Below, piece by piece: positions 20,612 through 63,998 of a DNA stretch of 64,000 bases (position 1 is the stretch's first letter; every line of letters begins with the position of its first letter). The notes below the pieces were generated by a model. The model was not told the DNA's origin. It was given only the letters and a program-made list of their open reading frames with translations, and did not search any database. The position numbers and the translations under genes were made by a program. This DNA is from an uncultured bacterium (lineage in GTDB: Bacteria; Patescibacteriota; Saccharimonadia; Saccharimonadales; Saccharimonadaceae). The DNA lies in contig CAJBFN010000001.1 of NCBI GenBank assembly GCA_903952435.1, positions 62,001-126,000 on the forward strand. The letters are read 5' to 3'.

Positions 20612-20640
20612 ATATTTAGGATATCATAAAATAAGGTAAT

Positions 20641-20771
20641 GACATTGCCTTGCTTTGCTCGTCTCCTACGCTTGCTCATAAAAATATGTAAACACATTTT
20701 TATTTCACTGCGCTGCGCCAAACTTCGACCTACAAATTTTGCTGGGGCAAAATTTGGGTCGAAGGTTTGAG
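20641..20771 (-). repeat. tRNA-tail element downstream of tRNA-Pro (inverted T-arm copy 20757-20771, second T-arm copy 20719-20730, conserved GCGCAGTG/GTTTAC/GCAAGCG module)
   Basis: 20757-20771 GGTCGAAGGTTTGAG is the exact reverse complement of tRNA T-arm 20847-20861; distal module shared with the elements at 28963-29081 and 37262-37372. Confidence 0.8.
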
Positions 20772-20788: not shown

Positions 20789-20832
20789 CCAAATAAAAAA
20801 TACCATTCAGCCGAATGGTATTTTTTATTTGG
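20789..20832 (-). terminator. Hairpin terminator with the tRNA-Pro CCA end inside the stem
   Basis: CCAAATAAAAAATACCATTC-ggct-GAATGGTATTTTTTATTTGG, perfect 20-bp stem. Confidence 0.8.
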
Positions 20833-20905
20833 TCGGGGTGAAAGGACTCAAACCTTCGACCTCACGGTCCCAAACCGCGCGCGCTATCAACTGCGCCACA
20901 CCCCG
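20830..20905 (-). tRNA. tRNA-Pro(TGG), CCA encoded
   Basis: CGGGGTGTGGCGCAGTTGATAGCGCGCGCGGTTTGGGACCGTGAGGTCGAAGGTTTGAGTCCTTTCACCCCGACCA; anticodon TGG. Confidence 0.93.
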
Positions 20906-27657: not shown

Positions 27658-27769
27658 ATGAATATAATAGCAGAAAAATATTGTTAGTGGGTTGTAGATT
27701 TGCAAGCATCCTCCGCTTGTTTGCGAAAAAAACATTTGGGTTGTTAGGCGGTCCGATCCATCCGGATTA

Positions 27770-27811
27770 CCAAAATAAAATAACCATCTTTCGATGGCTA
27801 TTTTATTTTGG
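27770..27811 (-). terminator. Hairpin terminator including the tRNA-Arg CCA end
   Basis: CCAAAATAAAATAGCCATC-gaaa-GATGGTTATTTTATTTTGG. Confidence 0.8.
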
Positions 27812-27884
27812 TACCCCGGGTTGGAATCGGACCAACGACCTTAGGCTTAGAAGTCCTCTGCTCTATCCACTGAGCTACCGGGGC
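27809..27884 (-). tRNA. tRNA-Arg(TCT), CCA encoded
   Basis: GCCCCGGTAGCTCAGTGGATAGAGCAGAGGACTTCTAAGCCTAAGGTCGTTGGTCCGATTCCAACCCGGGGTACCA. Confidence 0.93.
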
Positions 27885-28913: not shown

Positions 28914-28941
28914 AAAAACCGTATCAGCCGATACGGTTTTT
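28914..28941 (-). terminator. Hairpin terminator attached to a duplicated tRNA-Gly 3' end
   Basis: AAAAACCGTATC-agcc/ggct-GATACGGTTTTT, immediately next to TTGGTGCGGGCG. Confidence 0.65.
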
Positions 28942-28962
28942 AATTGGTGCGGGCGAAGAGAA
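28938..28962 (-). repeat. Duplicate of the tRNA-Gly 3' end (direct repeat of 29121-29145, 1 mismatch in 25)
   Basis: ttttaattggtgcgggcgaagagaa vs ttttaattggtgcgggcggagagaa, 183 bp apart. Confidence 0.85.
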
Positions 28963-29081
28963 GGCGGTCATTATGCTTCCTACTTCCGCTTGCTTATAAA
29001 ATAAGTAAACTGATTTTGTTGCACTGCGCTTCACGAACTCTCATCTGGTTCGCTTTGCTCGCTGATGAGAGTTCAAATCTC
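28963..29081 (-). repeat. tRNA-tail element downstream of tRNA-Gly (inverted T-arm copy 29064-29081, second T-arm copy 29035-29045, conserved module)
   Basis: GATGAGAGTTCAAATCTC mirrors T-arm GATGAGAGTTCGATTCTC; shares GCGCAGTG...GTTTAC...AAGCAAGCG with the tRNA-Pro element. Confidence 0.8.
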
Positions 29082-29089
29082 AACACATG

Positions 29090-29130
29090 CCAATTAAAAA
29101 ATCGTACTCAAGGTACGATATTTTAATTGG
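29090..29130 (-). terminator. Hairpin terminator including the tRNA-Gly CCA end
   Basis: CCAATTAAAATATCGTACC-ttga-GTACGATTTTTTAATTGG. Confidence 0.8.
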
Positions 29131-29202
29131 TGCGGGCGGAGAGAATCGAACTCTCATCGTTTGCTTGGAAGGCAGACATATTAGCCTTTATACGACGCCC
29201 GC
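29128..29202 (-). tRNA. tRNA-Gly(TCC), CCA encoded
   Basis: GCGGGCGTCGTATAAAGGCTAATATGTCTGCCTTCCAAGCAAACGATGAGAGTTCGATTCTCTCCGCCCGCACCA. Confidence 0.93.
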
Positions 29203-29283: not shown

Positions 29284-29361
29284 GGCGAATGTAGCTCATC
29301 TGGTTAGAGCGTCGGGTTGTGGTTCCGAAGGTAGTGGGTTCGATCCCCATCATTCGCCCCA
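29284..29361 (+). tRNA. tRNA-His(GTG) with G-1, CCA encoded
   Basis: G-GCGAATGTAGCTCATCTGGTTAGAGCGTCGGGTTGTGGTTCCGAAGGTAGTGGGTTCGATCCCCATCATTCGCCCCA. Confidence 0.93.
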
Positions 29362-29565
29362 AAATATTAAAATCAGGCTTAATGCCTGGTTTTATTATTT
29401 TGAAGCAATTGATTTGGGGATCGACCCACGAAGTAGTGGGTGAGAACTGCCAGTGGCAGTTCGCAAGGCCGGAAGCTAGATGGCGACTTGTCGCCACCAA
29501 CTGAGGCGGGGTCGCGAAAAATTCAGGATGAATTTTATCGTGACCGATCCCCATCATTCGCCCCA
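29341..29565 (+). repeat. 21-bp direct repeats of the tRNA-His 3' end flanking a 183-bp structured insert (inverted T-arm copy at 29415-29429)
   Basis: CGATCCCCATCATTCGCCCCA at 29341-29361 and 29545-29565; TGGGGATCGACCCAC mirrors the T-arm. Confidence 0.9.
29359..29402 (+). terminator. Hairpin terminator including the tRNA-His CCA end
   Basis: CCAAAATATTAAAATCAGGC-ttaa-TGCCTGGTTTTATTATTTTG. Confidence 0.75.
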
Positions 29566-33626: not shown

Positions 33627-34148
33627 TTATGAGGCGGTGTAGAAACAGTTTACTGCCGTAGGGGTTCCTGATACTAAGACTGTACCTGAAACTGTCCCTG
33701 TTGATAATATTGCCTGGGCTGGTGTTGTATCATAGTCCCAATAACCGACTTTCACTCCTGTCGCATTTGTAGCTGTTGTTAGGGCCAATGTTGTCGCCGT
33801 TGAGCATATTTGATAAGAAACTTTGTTTGGTGTTATATTTGTTGCGTTTAATGCTGCTGCACCATTGCCTATGGTTATTCCAGAAAGAGCTGCAGAGGAA
33901 GTACCAGCTGCTATAGCGCTTGCAAGGGTTAGCGGATATGAATTCGATGGACTATCTGCTACATAAATATCCACCTTACTTATTACATTATTAGCAGTCG
34001 ATTTTGCACTTGAGCCGTTTGCTCTTTGAGTTACTCCAGTATAAGAAACAACTGAAATTGCAGCCAAAATACCGATGACTACGATAACAACCAAAAGCTC
34101 TACGATTGTAAAACCTCTGCTTTTAGATTTAATATTTAAATTTGTCAT
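33627..34148 (-). CDS. Type IV pilin-like protein
   Basis: KSRGFTIVELLVVIVVIGILAAISVVSYTGVTQRA. Confidence 0.93.
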   Translation of the reverse strand: MTNLNIKSKSRGFTIVELLVVIVVIGILAAISVVSYTGVTQRANGSSAKSTANNVISKVDIYVADSPSNSYPLTLASAIAAGTSSAALSGITIGNGAAALNATNITPNKVSYQICSTATTLALTTATNATGVKVGYWDYDTTPAQAILSTGTVSGTVLVSGTPTAVNCFYTAS

Positions 34149-34240
34149 TTTGCCCCCTATTAGATTTTGTTAATGTTAATGACTTAAATATACTATAACG
34201 CTTATGTAAATACAAGTTTTTTGGGTTGATATTGTATTAA

Positions 34241-35008
34241 TTAATTGGCGTTAATTGCACTAATTGTGCCGGATTTGGTAATGCTTCGACCAGCAACTGT
34301 CGATGTGGCTTTGATAGTGACGGTTATTGCTCCGGGTTTAATTGATCCGGCGAATTCATCATACACAATGTTAAACCCATCAGAGTCCAGGCCTTCAATA
34401 AGTTTTTCGTCGTTGGTTTTACAAAATAGATCTATCGACCCAATACTGCAACTTGGTATCTGCCAGGGCGTGCCACAACCAACAGAATTATAATCTGCCG
34501 GCATTATAACTCGTCGCCATAATGTATTAATGTTATTAATACTCCTGACAAAATAGACAATATTCAGTGTTAGTGGTATGTTTTGATATTTTTCGGTACT
34601 GTTGCATAGGTTAGGTGTGTCTTTTTTATATATAATACTTCTAGTTGGCGATAACGGGCTGTCGCTTGTTGCATAGGATTCGACTATTAATGGGCTAAAA
34701 GGTAATATTGGTGTTGTAAATTTCGTGCTATCGTTTAGGCGACCTTGTGGTGTTGAAATATCAAAACTATTGGTACTGAGATATCCTTTGCTAATTCTAA
34801 AATCCGCCTCAATTCGGTTCAAAGTATCTTGAATATTATAAGCCAAGACATTTGCAGCACGGCCGGCCATTACATCACCAGTCATTGTGACGATTGCGTA
34901 TATAAATGTGCCAATGACTAATATAACCACAGGTGCAACAACCGCCATCTCGACAAGTGTAAAACCTTTTTGTATATGATTTTTATTTTTTGTTGACATA
35001 TGTTGCAT
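34241..35008 (-). CDS. Prepilin-type N-terminal domain protein
   Basis: QKGFTLVEMAVVAPVVILVIGTFIYAIV. Confidence 0.88.
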   Translation of the reverse strand: MQHMSTKNKNHIQKGFTLVEMAVVAPVVILVIGTFIYAIVTMTGDVMAGRAANVLAYNIQDTLNRIEADFRISKGYLSTNSFDISTPQGRLNDSTKFTTPILPFSPLIVESYATSDSPLSPTRSIIYKKDTPNLCNSTEKYQNIPLTLNIVYFVRSINNINTLWRRVIMPADYNSVGCGTPWQIPSCSIGSIDLFCKTNDEKLIEGLDSDGFNIVYDEFAGSIKPGAITVTIKATSTVAGRSITKSGTISAINAN

Positions 35009-35399
35009 CTGTTATCTGTTGTTGAGGATTGTTATATGTAACAGTAATACTTAACTTTGATATGCTTTTTGTATAATCTGATGCGGATGAATAAGGGCAC
35101 GTAAAAGAAGGTGTTATAGTTACGTTCGATAAACCGTCGATTGCTGGCGTTACTGGGTTTGTAAGTATCGTAGGGTTGGTAGCGCAGTTTATAGCGTTGT
35201 CATTCTTATATTTATCCTTGTATTGTTGAAGATATTGATATGCTACATTAACCGCCTTTGCTCTGGCGCTGGCTTCACCGTTATTCTTAATAATCATGGC
35301 ATACAGTTGGTATCCTGACATCAAAAAAGCTGCCGCAACAAATAGGGTGACTAAAAGTTCTACTGTCGTAAAGCCTGATTGTTTATTTATTTTTTTCAT
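34983..35399 (-). CDS. Prepilin-type N-terminal domain protein
   Basis: KQSGFTTVELLVTLFVAAAFLMSGYQLY. Confidence 0.88.
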   Translation of the reverse strand: MKKINKQSGFTTVELLVTLFVAAAFLMSGYQLYAMIIKNNGEASARAKAVNVAYQYLQQYKDKYKNDNAINCATNPTILTNPVTPAIDGLSNVTITPSFTCPYSSASDYTKSISKLSITVTYNNPQQQITDATYVNKK

Positions 35400-35926
35400 T
35401 GGTGCCTGCTCGATACTTTAAATGCAGTAGTGCCATTAATGATAGTTTCGGTTTTATAATATATATTGAATTTTCTGCATTCTTGCGTTGGCGTTGTCCG
35501 GTTACCGCTATCGTCACATAATGAACCGTCGCTTTGAAGTGGTTGATATACGTATTTATTTATATCGGTAGCGATGCTGGACTCAGTAGTGTTATTCGAC
35601 GTTGCGGCAATTAAGGATAATGTATCAGTTGTTGACGGGGCTTGTAGGGCCTTTGTATCTGTATCTTTAATAATATTAGTAGGATCTGGTAATAAATCTG
35701 CCGTTGATGGGTATTGACCAGTCTTTTGGCTGTTGTCTTTTGAAGTATAGCCGGAATTGTAAAATGACTCTAGTGCTGTCGCGATTGTCTCGACATCACT
35801 TTTTCGTTCGGCATCACGAGCATTAGCTTGTGAGCTGTTCAGATTAACAACTCCAAGGACTAATAATATCCCCATGATTGTGATAACAATTATCAACTCA
35901 ACGATAGTAAAGCCGCGTTTAACCAT
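35396..35926 (-). CDS. Prepilin-type N-terminal domain protein
   Basis: VKRGFTIVELIIVITIMGILLVLGVVNLNSSQANARDAERKSDV. Confidence 0.92.
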   Translation of the reverse strand: MVKRGFTIVELIIVITIMGILLVLGVVNLNSSQANARDAERKSDVETIATALESFYNSGYTSKDNSQKTGQYPSTADLLPDPTNIIKDTDTKALQAPSTTDTLSLIAATSNNTTESSIATDINKYVYQPLQSDGSLCDDSGNRTTPTQECRKFNIYYKTETIINGTTAFKVSSRHQ

Positions 35927-35962
35927 ATTATTAGCATAAGGTTTTTAGGGTTAAATCGCAAG

Positions 35963-36985
35963 TTATTGAATTTCGTTTGGCTCTTGTTCAATCTCGACAC
36001 GGAATATATCGCGTATTTTGCGAATTATTTGGTTTTTGGCTATTTCCAAGTCATTATATGAAGTTGCCGATTCGTTAACTAGAACAAGCGCATTTTTGTC
36101 ATAAACTCGGATACCGTTGATTAATTGGCCTTTAAATCCAGCTTGTTCAATCAGCCAGCCGGTTGGAATTTTGAATTTGCCATCGCCCATATCATATGTT
36201 GGTATATCTGGATATTTATTCTTAATCTCGTCCAGCTGCCATTTTTCGGCAATGGCATTTTTGAAAAATGACCCGCTATTTGCCATAATTTTAGGATCAG
36301 GCAGTTTAGAGGCGCGGATTTTTATAACTGCGTCACGAATGGTTTGCTGAGTGTAGATTTTGATATTATTTTCGTCCAGATATTTTTGTAAAGAATCATA
36401 AAAGGGCGGTGTAGGTTGGTTTTTAGATAATTTTAAGGTAATCGAGGTTATAATATAGCGGCCCTTGTCTAGACTGTTAAATATGCTTTTGCGATAACTA
36501 AAATTGCAATCTTCGTGGGTCAGGTTTACGAATTCTTCATTTTCAGTATCGTAGGCTTCAAGCGATATTAAAGTGTCGGCAATTTCTTGGCCATAGGCTC
36601 CAATATTCTGAACCGGGGCAGCGCCAATAGTGCCCGGTATTGCCGACATAGCTTCGATACCACTAAGGCTCATATCAACGGTTCGTTTTACGACCGAGTC
36701 CCAATCTTCGCCAGCGCCAATTTTAATAGTGGTTGAATTTATGTCGTCGGCCATCTTTTCAAAACCTGGTATTTTAATCTTTAAAATTATGCCGTTATAG
36801 CCTTCATCGCGAGCGATTAAATTACTGCCGCCGCCCATTATAAAAATAGGTAAGTTTTGAGCTTTTGCGTTTTGGAAGATTTTTGCGATATCCTCGGTTT
36901 TAAATATATCAGTCATAAATCTAGCTTTACCACCTAGCCGCATAGTCGTGAAGTTTTTAATTGGAATGTTTGTGTGAATTTCCAT
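35963..36985 (-). CDS. murB: UDP-N-acetylmuramate dehydrogenase
   Basis: TNIPIKNFTTMRLGGKARF, FIMGGGSNLIARDEGYNGIILKI, NSGSFFKNAI. Confidence 0.96.
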   Translation of the reverse strand: MEIHTNIPIKNFTTMRLGGKARFMTDIFKTEDIAKIFQNAKAQNLPIFIMGGGSNLIARDEGYNGIILKIKIPGFEKMADDINSTTIKIGAGEDWDSVVKRTVDMSLSGIEAMSAIPGTIGAAPVQNIGAYGQEIADTLISLEAYDTENEEFVNLTHEDCNFSYRKSIFNSLDKGRYIITSITLKLSKNQPTPPFYDSLQKYLDENNIKIYTQQTIRDAVIKIRASKLPDPKIMANSGSFFKNAIAEKWQLDEIKNKYPDIPTYDMGDGKFKIPTGWLIEQAGFKGQLINGIRVYDKNALVLVNESATSYNDLEIAKNQIIRKIRDIFRVEIEQEPNEIQ

Positions 36986-37133
36986 ATATAATTATTATAT
37001 CCTAAATTATAAAATAAGCTTAAGCTAAACTTTAGAAGGACGGACCTTCTAAAATGATCTTTTGTGTTATAGTATATTTTTTGTCGTGTTGTAATAACAG
37101 TGGTAAAGATATATAATCGGTTAGTAAATGTAC

Positions 37134-37210
37134 GCACCCGTAGCTCAGCTGGATAGAGTATTTGGCTTCGAACCAAAGGGTCGGCGGTTCGAATCCGTCC
37201 GGGTGTACCA
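37134..37210 (+). tRNA. tRNA-Arg(TCG), CCA encoded
   Basis: GCACCCGTAGCTCAGCTGGATAGAGTATTTGGCTTCGAACCAAAGGGTCGGCGGTTCGAATCCGTCCGGGTGTACCA. Confidence 0.94.
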
Positions 37211-37249
37211 AAATAAATTGACGAGTGAAAACTCGTCTATTTATTTTGG
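37208..37249 (+). terminator. Hairpin terminator including the tRNA-Arg CCA end
   Basis: CCAAAATAAATTGACGAGT-gaaa-ACTCGTCTATTTATTTTGG. Confidence 0.8.
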
Positions 37250-37261
37250 TAAATCCGCAGA

Positions 37262-37372
37262 GGATTTGAACCGCCGATTGGGTTTTGTTTACAAAATCCA
37301 AGGTCGACGGTTCGGCGTAGCGATTGAAGCGAAAAAGTGTTTACATTTTTTCGTGAATGAGCGAAGAAGGCT
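37262..37372 (+). repeat. tRNA-tail element downstream of tRNA-Arg(TCG) (inverted T-arm copy 37262-37277, direct copy 37302-37314, conserved module)
   Basis: GGATTTGAACCGCCGA mirrors TCGGCGGTTCGAATCC; GGTCGACGGTTCG repeats GGTCGGCGGTTCG; followed by AAAAAGTGTTTACATTTTTTCG and GAGCGAAGAAGG. Confidence 0.8.
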
Positions 37373-37416
37373 TTAGCCGCTATCCGTTCGGAATAAAACC
37401 TGATAACATAACTAGT

Positions 37417-38214
37417 ATGTCTATCTTAAACGCAATAATTATGGGTTTGGTGCAGGGTATAACGGAATTTTTACCAATTAGTAGTTCGGGTCATTTGGTT
37501 ATCTTTAGTAAAATTTTAGATCTTGGCAATGTTTTTATTTTTGATGTTCTACTTAATTTTGGATCGTTACTGGCGCTGATTATTTATTATCGCAAGCGAA
37601 TTTTGTCAATTATTGTCAGGATTTTTAGTGGCAAAGAGTGGCTGTTAGTTGCCAAGGTTGTGGCCGCCACTATTCCAGCGGTTTTGATTGGTTTGGTCTT
37701 TAATGACCAAATTGAAAAATTAAACAGTTTGATATGGGTCGTGATTACTACTTTAATGTTGGTTGGCATTTTAATGATTGTCGCTGGTAATGCTAAAAAA
37801 GGCGCTGATGATCGAGAGATTGAAAAATCTGTTGGTTGGAGATTGGCGGTAAAAACTGGGCTTGCTCAGGCTTTAGCTTTAATCCCTGGTGTATCTAGGT
37901 CTGGAATTACGATTTTAACTGGACTGCGTAATAATCTAAGCGCTGCCAGAGCGGCTGAGTTTAGTTTTTTGTTGGCCATTCCGATAATTGCCGGTGCTAG
38001 CTTTAAGATGCTAGTTTCTACAGAGGGGATTGATTTTATAAAAAATAATATGGCAGCTTTTGTGGTTGGCAACATTGTTTCGTTTGTTTCGGGGATCTTA
38101 GCGATTGGTTTTTTGATTAATCTAATCTCAAAGCGCGGACTTAAAGATTTTGGCTGGTATAGGGTTGGGTTGGCGTCGCTGCTGATTGTTTTGTGTTTGT
38201 TTGGGGCTTTTTAA
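37417..38214 (+). CDS. uppP: Undecaprenyl-diphosphate phosphatase (start revised from 37357)
   Basis: MGLVQGITEFLPISSSGHLVIFSKIL, LIPGVSRSGITILTGLRNNLS. Confidence 0.96.
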   Translation: MSILNAIIMGLVQGITEFLPISSSGHLVIFSKILDLGNVFIFDVLLNFGSLLALIIYYRKRILSIIVRIFSGKEWLLVAKVVAATIPAVLIGLVFNDQIEKLNSLIWVVITTLMLVGILMIVAGNAKKGADDREIEKSVGWRLAVKTGLAQALALIPGVSRSGITILTGLRNNLSAARAAEFSFLLAIPIIAGASFKMLVSTEGIDFIKNNMAAFVVGNIVSFVSGILAIGFLINLISKRGLKDFGWYRVGLASLLIVLCLFGAF

Positions 38215-38245
38215 TTGTAATTAAGTTCCAATCTAATTTCGGCTA

Positions 38246-38284
38246 AATCAAAATACCCATCTTAAGATGAGTATTTTAATTTGG
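38246..38284 (-). terminator. Hairpin terminator including the tRNA-Lys CCA end
   Basis: CCAAATTAAAATACTCATC-ttaa-GATGGGTATTTTGATTT. Confidence 0.75.
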
Positions 38285-38358
38285 TGGGTCAGGTGGGACT
38301 CGAACCCACGACATTCTGCTTAAGAGGCAGACGCTCTAACCAGCTGAGCTACTGACCC
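38282..38358 (-). tRNA. tRNA-Lys(CTT), CCA encoded
   Basis: GGGTCAGTAGCTCAGCTGGTTAGAGCGTCTGCCTCTTAAGCAGAATGTCGTGGGTTCGAGTCCCACCTGACCCACCA. Confidence 0.93.
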
Positions 38359-38413
38359 ATTCAACAACCATTGATTGTACACTATTACCCCTGTTGGCAC
38401 AATATATAAAGGA

Positions 38414-39622
38414 CTATTGACTTTTAATAATTACTAGACCTGAGCCGATTCTGTCTCCGGCTGTATTGGATTGATTATCGCCACCATTAAACGAACCGCC
38501 ACCGCCACCATTTCCGGAAGAAGACGAAAGCCAACCACCAGCACCACCACCAGAATAACCTCCACCACCGCCTCCGCCAGCATATGCACCGCCACCTCCG
38601 CCAAAACCACCATCAATAGTCGGAGTAAGGCGGTCGCTCCTATATCCAACTCCGCCCTCGCCGTTATTACTGAACGATTTTCCACCTTTACCATAGTTAG
38701 TAGAATCTATTCCATTTGTCAGCCATCCGCCTCCTCCTCCAGAATAAGTACTGGTGCCGCCTCCTGCACCACTAATTCCTCCGGCAACAAAAGATGGGCC
38801 TGGTCCTTTGGTTCCTGATCCGCCGTCAGTCCCGGATTGACCATTTGCGGCTGGAGTAGTCACATATTGACCAGCTCCACCTCCGCCGCCAGCAGCAATA
38901 AGCAATGTGCCGTCTTCTTTATTAGTTATGAAAGTTCCACCGCCTCCACCGCCGGCACGGAAATTATTTGCATAATCGTAGCCTGGCTGGCCTACTAAAA
39001 TACTAATTACCTGACCAGCCGTAAGGTTAAATGTACCTTTAATCCATGCACCCTTGCCTCCTGGATTAATAGTATTAGTGGATAAAAGGTAGCTATAACC
39101 ACCTTGTGCACCATACGCATCTATCACGTAACTTCCAGTTATGGGCACAGTCCAGGTTTGGATAGTCCCGGTTGAGCCAGTAGATGTGGCATTGAATGTT
39201 TGATTAACTTCAGATGTTGGTATGGCGTTTTTGTCGGTAATATACTTTTCAATACCATTAGCATTAGATTCGGTTAATGTAAAAGATGGTGGGTTTGTAT
39301 TAGCTTTATAGGTAAATGTATTGTCGTTACTAGCCTTTAGACATATTTCAGTTGGACTAGTCGTGGGGCATTTATTGGCTGTTGGATAAGCTCCGTTTTC
39401 TATTTTATACATTTCTAATTGTTTTGATGCATTACTTAGATCTGATTGTAATGATGCCACTACGGCTTTAGATGTTATTCCGTTGTAAGATATTGTAGAG
39501 ATAGCTGCTAATATGCCAATCACAACGATTACCACTAATAACTCAACAATCGTGAAAGCGGGAGAGTAAGATATATTTCTTGGGCATGCTTTAAATGCCA
39601 CATAGTTTTTCATCTTATGCAT
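38414..39622 (-). CDS. Pilin-like protein with a C-terminal glycine-rich domain
   Basis: SPAFTIVELLVVIVVIGILAAISTISYNGI then FNATSTGSTGTIQTWTVPITGSYVIDAYGAQGG...GGGGGGTFITNKEDGTLLIAAGGGGGAG... Confidence 0.88.
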   Translation of the reverse strand: MHKMKNYVAFKACPRNISYSPAFTIVELLVVIVVIGILAAISTISYNGITSKAVVASLQSDLSNASKQLEMYKIENGAYPTANKCPTTSPTEICLKASNDNTFTYKANTNPPSFTLTESNANGIEKYITDKNAIPTSEVNQTFNATSTGSTGTIQTWTVPITGSYVIDAYGAQGGYSYLLSTNTINPGGKGAWIKGTFNLTAGQVISILVGQPGYDYANNFRAGGGGGGTFITNKEDGTLLIAAGGGGGAGQYVTTPAANGQSGTDGGSGTKGPGPSFVAGGISGAGGGTSTYSGGGGGWLTNGIDSTNYGKGGKSFSNNGEGGVGYRSDRLTPTIDGGFGGGGGAYAGGGGGGGYSGGGAGGWLSSSSGNGGGGGSFNGGDNQSNTAGDRIGSGLVIIKSQ

Positions 39623-61408: not shown

Positions 61409-63998
61409 CAATATAAACATAGAAAAAGTACTGCCAATATTGCCAGTACAGAGTGGCATGATAGCTGATAGCGCAGCTGGCACCGACGGCTATTACATTG
61501 AGCAGATTTGCATACAATTAAAACCAAGTATAAACGACAAAATATTATTATCGCGTATTAAGAGAATCGTTGAATCAAATGAAATCCTTAGAACAGTTTT
61601 TGACTGGTCGGAAGACAACGCAATACAGGTCATTATATCAGGGATAGAGCCTATCACAGCCATAATGTCCATAAATTCAGATATAGAACTAGACGCTATA
61701 TTAAATAAAGAAAGACAAACTTTAAAACCGATTAATATAGCTCCGCCGATCCGCTTTGCTATTGTTCATAATAAGGCAATCCAATATTTAGTCGTTACTT
61801 ATCACCATGTACTTTTAGATGGCCCTAGTGTAAACAGTCTACTTGATATTCTATGCACAGATGGCGGTTACTCAAAGAACTCAACAGAACAATATATTAA
61901 ATGGCAAAATGATAACACGTCGAGGCAACAACACATAGGAACATGGCAGGGATTATTAGACGGATTAATACCAGAGGACGGAATATTACCGATATCTCGT
62001 GACAATAAGGGTAAGTTAGCTATATCAAAAATTATGGTAGATATTGATTTTCGAGATAAATTGATTAAAAAAACAAAATCAATGAGCCTTACTCCAGCAG
62101 TTTGCATGCAAGTTCTCTGGGGGCAATGGTTAGCTTCTTATTTTTCCAAAAATAAGTTACTGTATGGGCTAGTAGTTAGTACTCGCATCAATGGGATCAA
62201 CGATCGGGCAATTGGCCCGTATATAGCGACTATACCATGTCTTGATAAATTAATGATCGGTAGTAGTTTTGTCGAAGTTAGTAAAAAGAAGCAAGAAGAT
62301 GTTCTTGCAATCGATATAGCTAAACATATTTCACTAAGGAATATTACACAAAATGTATCGCCATATACTGGACTATTTGATGCAATTCTTAACATAACGA
62401 CACATCCCGTAGTAAGCAAAAAATATTATGAGGTAATAAATACTTATGAGAATACAGGATATAAGCTTAGCGCTGATATTATAATTACCGACAATATCGA
62501 AATATTGTTTTCTTCATCTTGTCTAAAGAATAATCAGCTTAATGATGCTATACGGTCATTTTCGGAATATTGTTCTGTGCAGATAGAACAAGAAAATATA
62601 ATCGACATAGATCAAAAATATAAGATACATAAAATTAATCATATAAATGATAAAAAAACCATTAAAGATATCGACGTATTAGTTGCCCAATCTATTAATA
62701 TAGAGCCAAAAGTTGTCGATATGGAGATGTCATTCATCGAAAATGGCGGCGACTCAATAAATGCCCTTCGTCTGGTAAATTTATTACAAGCAAGAGACAT
62801 AGCCTGTTCTGTTGGTGATATCCTAAGAGCTAAGTCACTAAATAACATAACTGATAAAAATGCTGATAATGTTGGCATTCAGACACAGAAAAAAAATAAC
62901 AGCAAAGTAGAATACGAGGTAGACGTATTAAATATTCCATTTTCAACACAGCGTATAATCGACGCTTACAAAACGGGTTACGGACAGGACTATCACGAAC
63001 AAACTGCGTTTAAGCTTGCATCCGACCTTGATGTTAACATAATGAAGCTGGCATTATATGAACTTGGCATGGAAATACCAACTTTACGCTTGAAGTACTC
63101 AGAAGGGCATATAAACAAACAGAAACTAACCAATAAGCCCCGCATAAGCCTAAAGAATATTAAAAGAAATACAACTTTTGATGATTTTATCAAAAGAGTC
63201 TCCGATGATGATATGAAGCATGAAATTAATATTAACCATGGAGATTTATTTAGAGTAGTAATGCAATCATATAAAAATGGCTATTACTTCCTCATAGGTT
63301 TTTCAGCACTGGTAACCGACGGATGGTCTTTTTCAAAATTATTATCGAGGTTATTCGAAATTTATGGAGATATATCAAAAAATTGCCATACACGTCGTGT
63401 GGATGTATCTTATATTAATTACTGTAAACAATATCAAACCGACAACACTCAAATAGAGCAAGATCTACCTATAAAAAAATTATCATATTCATTTGATGTA
63501 TCTCAAAAAAAATATTATATAAATAAGGCACAAACTAATAAGATAATTAGTAACTGTAAATCTAAGAATCTAACTATTAATGATTATTTATTAAAACAAG
63601 CCATATCTATTCTTACCGGTCGAGATTTTTCAAATCTTGAAATTTATGAAAATGGTCGCAACAATTTCAGTCTTTATGATTCTGTGGGGCCGTATAGTCA
63701 TTTATTAACAAAAACAATAAATAACGTAATATCAAATAGGGCATATTTTGTTTTTGAGAATTACCCAAAAGATGATGAAAATCGCTTAAGAAATAATATG
63801 ATAGAGAATTTTAAAGAAAACGGCAATTGGCGACGCACATTATTGCCACCAGCTACAATATTAGGCTTATCGTTTGAAACAACAGAAGACGAGATTATTG
63901 TGCTAATCGCGGCTCGTAGAGGAAGTGACATTAAAATTAATGATTACTGGGAGGACTTAATTAATATTATAAATAAGGAGGATAAATATGGATTTTGA
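61401..63998 (+). CDS. NRPS protein lacking an A domain: C-PCP-C(degenerate)
   Basis: C motif YHHVLLDGPS; PCP MSFIENGGDSINALRLVNLL; second C-like domain FSTQRIIDAY...FSALVTDGWSF without the HH; TGA stop at 63996-63998. Confidence 0.92.
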   Translation: MDNNINIEKVLPILPVQSGMIADSAAGTDGYYIEQICIQLKPSINDKILLSRIKRIVESNEILRTVFDWSEDNAIQVIISGIEPITAIMSINSDIELDAILNKERQTLKPINIAPPIRFAIVHNKAIQYLVVTYHHVLLDGPSVNSLLDILCTDGGYSKNSTEQYIKWQNDNTSRQQHIGTWQGLLDGLIPEDGILPISRDNKGKLAISKIMVDIDFRDKLIKKTKSMSLTPAVCMQVLWGQWLASYFSKNKLLYGLVVSTRINGINDRAIGPYIATIPCLDKLMIGSSFVEVSKKKQEDVLAIDIAKHISLRNITQNVSPYTGLFDAILNITTHPVVSKKYYEVINTYENTGYKLSADIIITDNIEILFSSSCLKNNQLNDAIRSFSEYCSVQIEQENIIDIDQKYKIHKINHINDKKTIKDIDVLVAQSINIEPKVVDMEMSFIENGGDSINALRLVNLLQARDIACSVGDILRAKSLNNITDKNADNVGIQTQKKNNSKVEYEVDVLNIPFSTQRIIDAYKTGYGQDYHEQTAFKLASDLDVNIMKLALYELGMEIPTLRLKYSEGHINKQKLTNKPRISLKNIKRNTTFDDFIKRVSDDDMKHEININHGDLFRVVMQSYKNGYYFLIGFSALVTDGWSFSKLLSRLFEIYGDISKNCHTRRVDVSYINYCKQYQTDNTQIEQDLPIKKLSYSFDVSQKKYYINKAQTNKIISNCKSKNLTINDYLLKQAISILTGRDFSNLEIYENGRNNFSLYDSVGPYSHLLTKTINNVISNRAYFVFENYPKDDENRLRNNMIENFKENGNWRRTLLPPATILGLSFETTEDEIIVLIAARRGSDIKINDYWEDLINIINKEDKYGF

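Follow-up and report, generated by a model that had tools for sequence, protein, structure and literature searches.

We have analyzed the DNA that follows a glycine tRNA gene in a 64,000-nucleotide stretch of an uncultured member of the Saccharimonadaceae (the window; positions 62,001 to 126,000 of contig CAJBFN010000001.1, here C1). The window belongs to a host genome (G000) of 686 kb in 11 contigs with 40 tRNAs; other genomes and loci are designated below by G and L numbers. We read the tail of this tRNA-Gly gene as belonging to a family of integrative elements, short (~150-250 bp) and usually without genes, for which tRNA genes are the target, and we assign a probability of roughly one half to this reading taken jointly with movement by recombination of a folded strand. 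The family is dispersed, isoacceptor-specific and variable in presence and absence. Its members split and regenerate tRNA genes, and they carry an insert (INS) that folds in a strand-specific manner.

The intact, regenerated tRNA-Gly(tcc) gene, with its CCA encoded, occupies 29128-29202 on the minus strand (ARAGORN; Rfam RF00005, 57.2 bits). Directly after the CCA stands a terminator-like hairpin, T1 (29090-29130, minus; inverted repeat I1, 18 nt, 94%), the end of which repeats the CCA flank in inverted form (TTGG). A spacer separates T1 from an inverted T-arm piece, A-rc (29064-29081, plus; inverted repeat I2, 89% identity to 29141-29158), for which the cognate tRNA ranks first of 40 and which forms a hairpin base with a second direct copy of the T-arm 5' half, the A copy (29034-29045, minus; direct repeat D2, equal at 12 of 12 positions to 29147-29158). 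An INS of type A follows (28957-29039, minus), with a GTTTAC hairpin and the AAGCAAGCG module; it matches covariance model R1 at C1:90957-91039 with an E value of 7e-11, the sequence itself having belonged to the R1 training set. This INS lies in the T-loop of a second tRNA-Gly copy, of which the displaced original 3' end is found at 28938-28962 (minus, 24/25 identity) and aligns with the empty site of genome G008. The displaced end is the second copy of block B, which in the intact gene (29121-29145, minus) runs from the T-arm 3' half through the CCA into the first bases of T1. Together they form direct repeat D1 (25 nt, 96% identical, spacing 183 bp). The last component is T2 (28914-28941, minus; inverted repeat I3), the original tRNA-Gly terminator, to which the terminator behind the empty G008 tRNA-Gly is homologous.

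A preliminary description of this DNA had pointed out the inverted T-arm copy, the second direct copy, the 25-nt duplicate of the tRNA 3' end with one mismatch 183 bp away and the hairpin behind it, and each of these was recovered at the positions given above. It had overlooked that the duplicate and the second T-arm copy make up a single tRNA 3' half, the T-loop of which holds a structured insert of ~70 nt, and that the neighbouring tRNA-His and tRNA-Arg genes have tails of the same design. When the copies in the tRNA-Gly tail were scored against all 40 tRNAs, the inverted copy scored 26 and the direct copy 31, both ranking 1 of 40, against a 95% level of 20 for shuffled sequences. Because the adjacent tRNA is the best match of all 40, these copies are beyond chance.

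The state of the same tRNA genes in relatives bears on insertion. Orthologues of tRNA-Gly, tagged by a downstream cupin gene, were compared in 18 genomes of the genus. The site is empty in ten relatives, with the CCA followed by a terminator and other sequence; it is occupied by a type A unit in the host genome and at L112, L115 and L118, and decayed at L114 and L124. The empty L116 site can be aligned with the window's displaced copy, T2 and cupin end. Whether the tRNA-His and tRNA-Arg(tct) sites are filled or empty likewise depends on the species. Type A and type B inserts alternate at the same tRNA for Arg-tct, where type A is present at L115 and type B at L112 and L118, and for Gln-ctg. 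Tandem units occur at the tRNA-His genes of L113 and L122. Since relatives display empty, filled, tandem and decayed states at the same tRNAs, sequence comparison gives good support to insertion with regeneration of the tRNA. These gains and losses are contrasts between species rather than strains, and the direction is inferred from the regenerated tRNA. The suggestion that a non-coding element of ~180 bp had inserted and duplicated the tRNA 3' end is supported by this varying presence and absence, with precise empty sites in other species of the genus. These empty sites speak against the alternative, a duplicate left over from a tandem tRNA gene, although longer tRNA copies with an insert do exist in relatives (L045, L134 and L171).

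The tRNA-Gly element has many counterparts in the host genome. Their general layout is a tRNA with CCA, a first terminator, an inverted T-arm piece, the T-arm 5' half, INS, the T-arm 3' half with CCA, and a second terminator. About 20 tails hold an inverted and/or direct copy that scores best for its own tRNA (270-nt tails, all 40 tRNAs compared), and covariance-model matches identify 17 of the 40 tRNA genes as element-bearing. The INS models were built from the host genome, R1 for type A from 12 sequences and R2 for type B from 6. The host-genome matches (11 for R1 and 7 for R2) all sit 42-109 bp from a tRNA, a zone that makes up 1.7% of the genome.

Within the window, tRNA-Pro, tRNA-Gly and tRNA-Arg(tcg) carry type A, tRNA-His carries type B, tRNA-Arg(tct) retains a remnant and tRNA-Lys(ctt) has none. 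The type A INS behind tRNA-Pro (20830-20905) lies at 20638-20724 on the minus strand (R1, C1:82638-82724); as had been proposed, the tRNA-Pro and tRNA-Gly tails share a module, both matching the one covariance model. Behind tRNA-Arg(tcg) (37134-37210) the type A INS is at 37309-37387 on the plus strand (R1, C1:99309-99387). The neighbouring target, tRNA-His(gtg) (29285-29361, plus; ARAGORN), is followed by a type B INS in the T-loop of a second tRNA-His copy (29433-29554, plus; R2, C1:91433-91554, E value 1.8e-29 for a training member) and by the displaced tRNA-His 3' end (29545-29565, plus; 21/21 identity). A decayed element lies at 27700-27772 (minus) behind tRNA-Arg(tct) (27809-27884), a gene occupied in its orthologues by either type A or type B. 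The window also encodes, clustered around tRNA-Arg and tRNA-Lys (33627-39622), several prepilin-like proteins whose N-termini bear type IV pilin motifs. Outside the window, on C2 of the host genome (L003, ~22.4 kb), a short stem copy, TATGGGGCAGAACAGGCGAAAGTCTGAACTGCTCCACCA, stands right after tRNA-Ala and is possibly a miniature variant of the design; something similar is seen in G022.

Type A is nearly confined to the genus and type B extends across the class. In searches with R1, 24 of the 28 genomes of the genus had type A, each with 1-13 copies, and there were scattered occurrences in the order. With R2, 39 of the 147 genomes of the class Saccharimonadia showed type B, with at most 14 per genome. 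In fragmented genomes, low copy counts are lower bounds. In a phylum-wide sample searched for type B, good matches were confined to the class, with five borderline, unchecked weak matches outside it.

The position of the insert was examined by mapping the flanks of 93 INS matches onto nearby tRNAs. Typically the left flank ends near tRNA position 54 and the right flank restarts at 58-59, and since the flanks stop and resume at these points, the centre of the T-loop is replaced by INS. Some type B units are instead found on the 5' side of the tRNA, where INS occupies the D-loop (tRNA-Glu at L131, L133 and L090; tRNA-Gln at L151), and in others INS is at the junction of the D-stem and the anticodon stem, position 26 (tRNA-Trp at L153, tRNA-Gly at L171 and tRNA-Gln(ctg) of the host genome, a gene with three inserts). 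The units in the D-loop or at position 26 supply a new promoter and 5' half. The earlier picture of a plain insertion at the tRNA 3' end must be amended accordingly: the break falls in the T-loop, the displaced copy is recognisable by its conserved folded insert and some elements enter at the 5' side. INS lies on the tRNA strand in nearly all cases, the inverted ones being at tRNA-Ser(gct) of the host genome and G007, tRNA-Ser(tga) of G018 and tRNA-Phe at L154.

Full-length tRNA copies that contain INS and have no adjacent intact partner are found at L134 and, decayed, at L045. The copy at L134/L175 (G022:C3:251258-251364) is an otherwise nearly complete tRNA with anticodon GAC, type B in the T-loop and CAA in place of CCA; G022 has another, intact tRNA-Val(gac) as well. 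At L087 (~590-780, G003:C4) a broken 3' end similar to that of tRNA-Trp and a type A unit are preceded by a hammerhead-like motif, CTGATGAGTCCAAAAGGACGAAA, which is possibly a tRNA-Trp intron or a ribozyme.

Both INS families fold strongly, and the folding of one strand is under selection. Paired cells account for 95.2% in a set of 32 type B sequences, and double-sided changes occur in 24 of 31 pairs; no shuffle reaches the observed values, and a control in which partners were slid 1-3 columns gave 39-50%. One type B helix is the tRNA T-stem, which varies with the tRNA and so is not independent, but the remaining helices covary too. The ratio of G-U to A-C pairs is 79:15 for type B (one nearly invariant G-U column contributes 30) and 70:9 for type A. 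Since G-U pairs outnumber A-C, the tRNA-sense strand is the folding strand, either as RNA or as single-stranded DNA. Units closed into circles fold better than shuffles (z = -4.7 to -8.6).

Four other explanations of the tails were weighed. One holds that they are a functional structured RNA or DNA device of tRNA genes, such as a decoy T-arm or an element for processing or termination, that is copied with the tRNA. The strand-specific covariation of both INS families would suit such a device, as would the constant association with tRNAs and the nearly invariable placement on the tRNA strand. However, the tails are patchy at orthologous tRNAs and many copies are decayed, type A and type B are exchanged at Arg-tct and Gln-ctg, inserts at Ser genes are inverted, and the tail sits behind a strong terminator; we consider this explanation improbable.

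It also seems unlikely that the tails are attachment-site (att) remnants of ordinary tRNA-targeting islands or phages with tyrosine integrases or large serine recombinases, their cargo deleted. The T-loop is a known integrase target (PMC1762012) and several genomes of the class have large serine recombinase genes adjoining the 3' ends of tRNAs, but random deletions would not be expected to leave a conserved multi-hairpin insert of constant size at more than 20 different tRNAs. Searches of phage and plasmid collections returned matches limited to the tRNA part, with nothing matching the tail among the phages or the tRNA-His element among the plasmids. Large serine recombinases were rejected as movers, for although they adjoin several tRNAs in the class, no INS was found with the type B model in the 1.5-kb flanks of 30 such genes. 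The classical att and integrase mechanism to which the preliminary description had likened the duplication was not borne out: no dedicated integrase was found, and a search for tyrosine recombinases elsewhere in the genome yielded a single housekeeping Xer-type gene, far from the tRNA-Gly element. As a separate observation, large serine recombinase genes lie just past the 3' ends of Lys, Phe, Leu, Gln, Gly and Asn tRNAs (L195-L205; L171:3714-5276), as if these were targets.

We regard as very unlikely an origin at the RNA level, in which INS would be an RNA resembling a ribozyme or intron, entering tRNA loops by reverse splicing before being copied back to DNA. The sense orientation, the insertion into tRNA loops and a strand-specific fold with a nearly invariant G-U pair would agree with it. 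Against it, Rfam at gathering and permissive thresholds gave tRNA matches only, with no match for INS, and the units include parts that act only as DNA (promoter, terminator). RNA splicing with retro-copying was rejected on two further grounds, the inverted inserts at tRNA-Ser genes and the absence of a reverse transcriptase from the host genome; none was found in the element-rich G004, G009 and G022 either.

There is similarly little probability that the tails are elements of the REP/RAYT kind, moved as single-strand hairpins by a Y1 (REP-associated) transposase. The elements are palindromic and fold as single strands, and the host genome has a RAYT-like gene right behind tRNA-Met, but there is no conserved GTAG foot, REPs have no tRNA specificity and RAYT genes are mostly away from the elements. 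The element-rich genomes G004, G006, G009, G012 and G015 give no Y1 match, and RAYT was rejected as the mover because it is not co-distributed with the elements. The RAYT-like gene itself (L105:1303-1923, C1 at ~33.6 kb, outside the window) is directly behind a decayed tRNA-Met tail. IS110 bridge-RNA elements were rejected as well, their transposase being absent from the host genome and found in 2 of 28 genomes of the genus.

Under the reading that we prefer, that of a tRNA-targeting integrative element, the element splits a tRNA gene in the T-loop, or sometimes in the D-loop or at position 26, and brings its own version of the part that it displaces, either a 3' half with terminator or a 5' half with promoter. 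A working tRNA is thereby regenerated, and the old half ends up to one side with INS in its loop. Later insertions stack beside the tRNA to give tandem arrays, a few of them holding genes. We infer that the moving form may be a mini-circle, the sense strand of which folds into the T1 hairpin, the A-rc/A hairpin and the INS hairpins, and that a Xer-type tyrosine recombinase may recombine this folded strand with the tRNA T-arm as integron cassettes are recombined at attI. Integration probably proceeds through a folded single strand as in integrons, with the enzyme putative. The host genome has one tyrosine recombinase, a Xer-like protein that scores above the cut-off of the XerA/integron-integrase model NF040815 and below those of the integron-integrase models TIGR02249 and NF011946, and no IntI/attI platform was seen; it also has one RAYT-like gene and two large serine recombinase matches. 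No candidate enzyme covaries convincingly with the elements.

Several points weigh against this reading. No recombinase was found in or beside the elements, the tRNA-Gly element itself being 183 bp long and without an integrase gene, and the Xer gene does not discriminate, as it is present in element-free genomes too. The integron attI/attC consensus was not identified. The tRNA part borne by the elements differs for each isoacceptor, so that one recombinase must accept many cores. Folding on one strand could equally be read as functional RNA, and the covariance alignments behind the pair counts were fitted to the structures and models under test, which favours G-U somewhat. Finally, gene-bearing arrays number just two or three, and their genes might be secondary insertions.

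Two of these arrays lie at tRNA-Asn. In G007 (L076) the genes for a TdeIII-like restriction enzyme and a D12-class adenine methyltransferase (L076:4561-6434) are enclosed by a pair of almost identical units. In G027 (L075) there are three units, and the intervening genes encode, in order, DUF2177, DUF1295 and DUF1697 proteins, a MORN-like protein and then prepilin-like proteins. The genes at L075 are all on the strand of the units, while those at L076 have mixed orientation; empty tandem arrays are also seen. These arrays hint at cassettes but are too little for proof. A class-wide, integron-like system of the Saccharimonadia, with the tRNA as anchor, folded single-stranded DNA mini-circles, tRNA regeneration, arrays and occasional genes such as those for restriction-modification, can be proposed only tentatively.

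Several known systems resemble these elements in part. The T-loop is the crossover place of class II integrases such as that of phage Ms6 (PMC1762012). Integration normally leaves partial copies of tRNAs behind, as described for kilobase-sized, gene-bearing elements (PMC9897764), and such copies mark genomic islands in tRNA genes as outlined for Islander (PMC4383910). The islands and Ms6-type integrases also share with our elements a target that is split and restored, and a displaced fragment at the far end; the end points that characterize a tRNA island, an intact tRNA and a displaced fragment of the same tRNA, are both present at tRNA-Gly. By contrast, the tRNA-Gly element is 183 bp, non-coding and without an integrase, a folded conserved insert lies inside the displaced copy, and dozens of isoacceptor-specific versions exist in one genome. 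Integron cassettes, in which attC recombines with attI and does so as a folded single strand (PMC4792948), are alike in stacking at one anchor and in one-strand folding, and perhaps also in a recombination site recognised by fold rather than sequence and in units that hold genes, but here the anchor is a tRNA gene, no IntI/attI platform was found, most units are empty and INS is not an attC by sequence. REP and REPIN elements with RAYT are likewise small, palindromic, non-autonomous DNA, and a RAYT-like gene is present in the genome; they differ in that several element-rich relatives lack RAYT, the GTAG foot is missing and the location in tRNA loops is strict. Palindromic and double-hairpin elements, namely the RPE of Rickettsia and the DHE of fungal mitochondria, are short hairpin elements in or near RNA genes, like the present tails; we know of no tRNA regeneration or cognate tRNA parts among them. 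The family was not found described among open-licence papers, and the tails look like a lineage-wide, apparently undescribed family of miniature cassette-like mobile elements.

Such a family would be among the smallest known whose integrative elements both use tRNA genes as targets and restore them. It reaches about half of the tRNA genes of one genome, in ultra-small episymbionts in which gene gain is poorly understood, and it offers specific testable junctions and folds as well as a possible route of single-strand recombination outside integrons. It also urges caution, in that the 3' flanks of tRNAs in these genomes are mobile DNA and not regulatory sequence.
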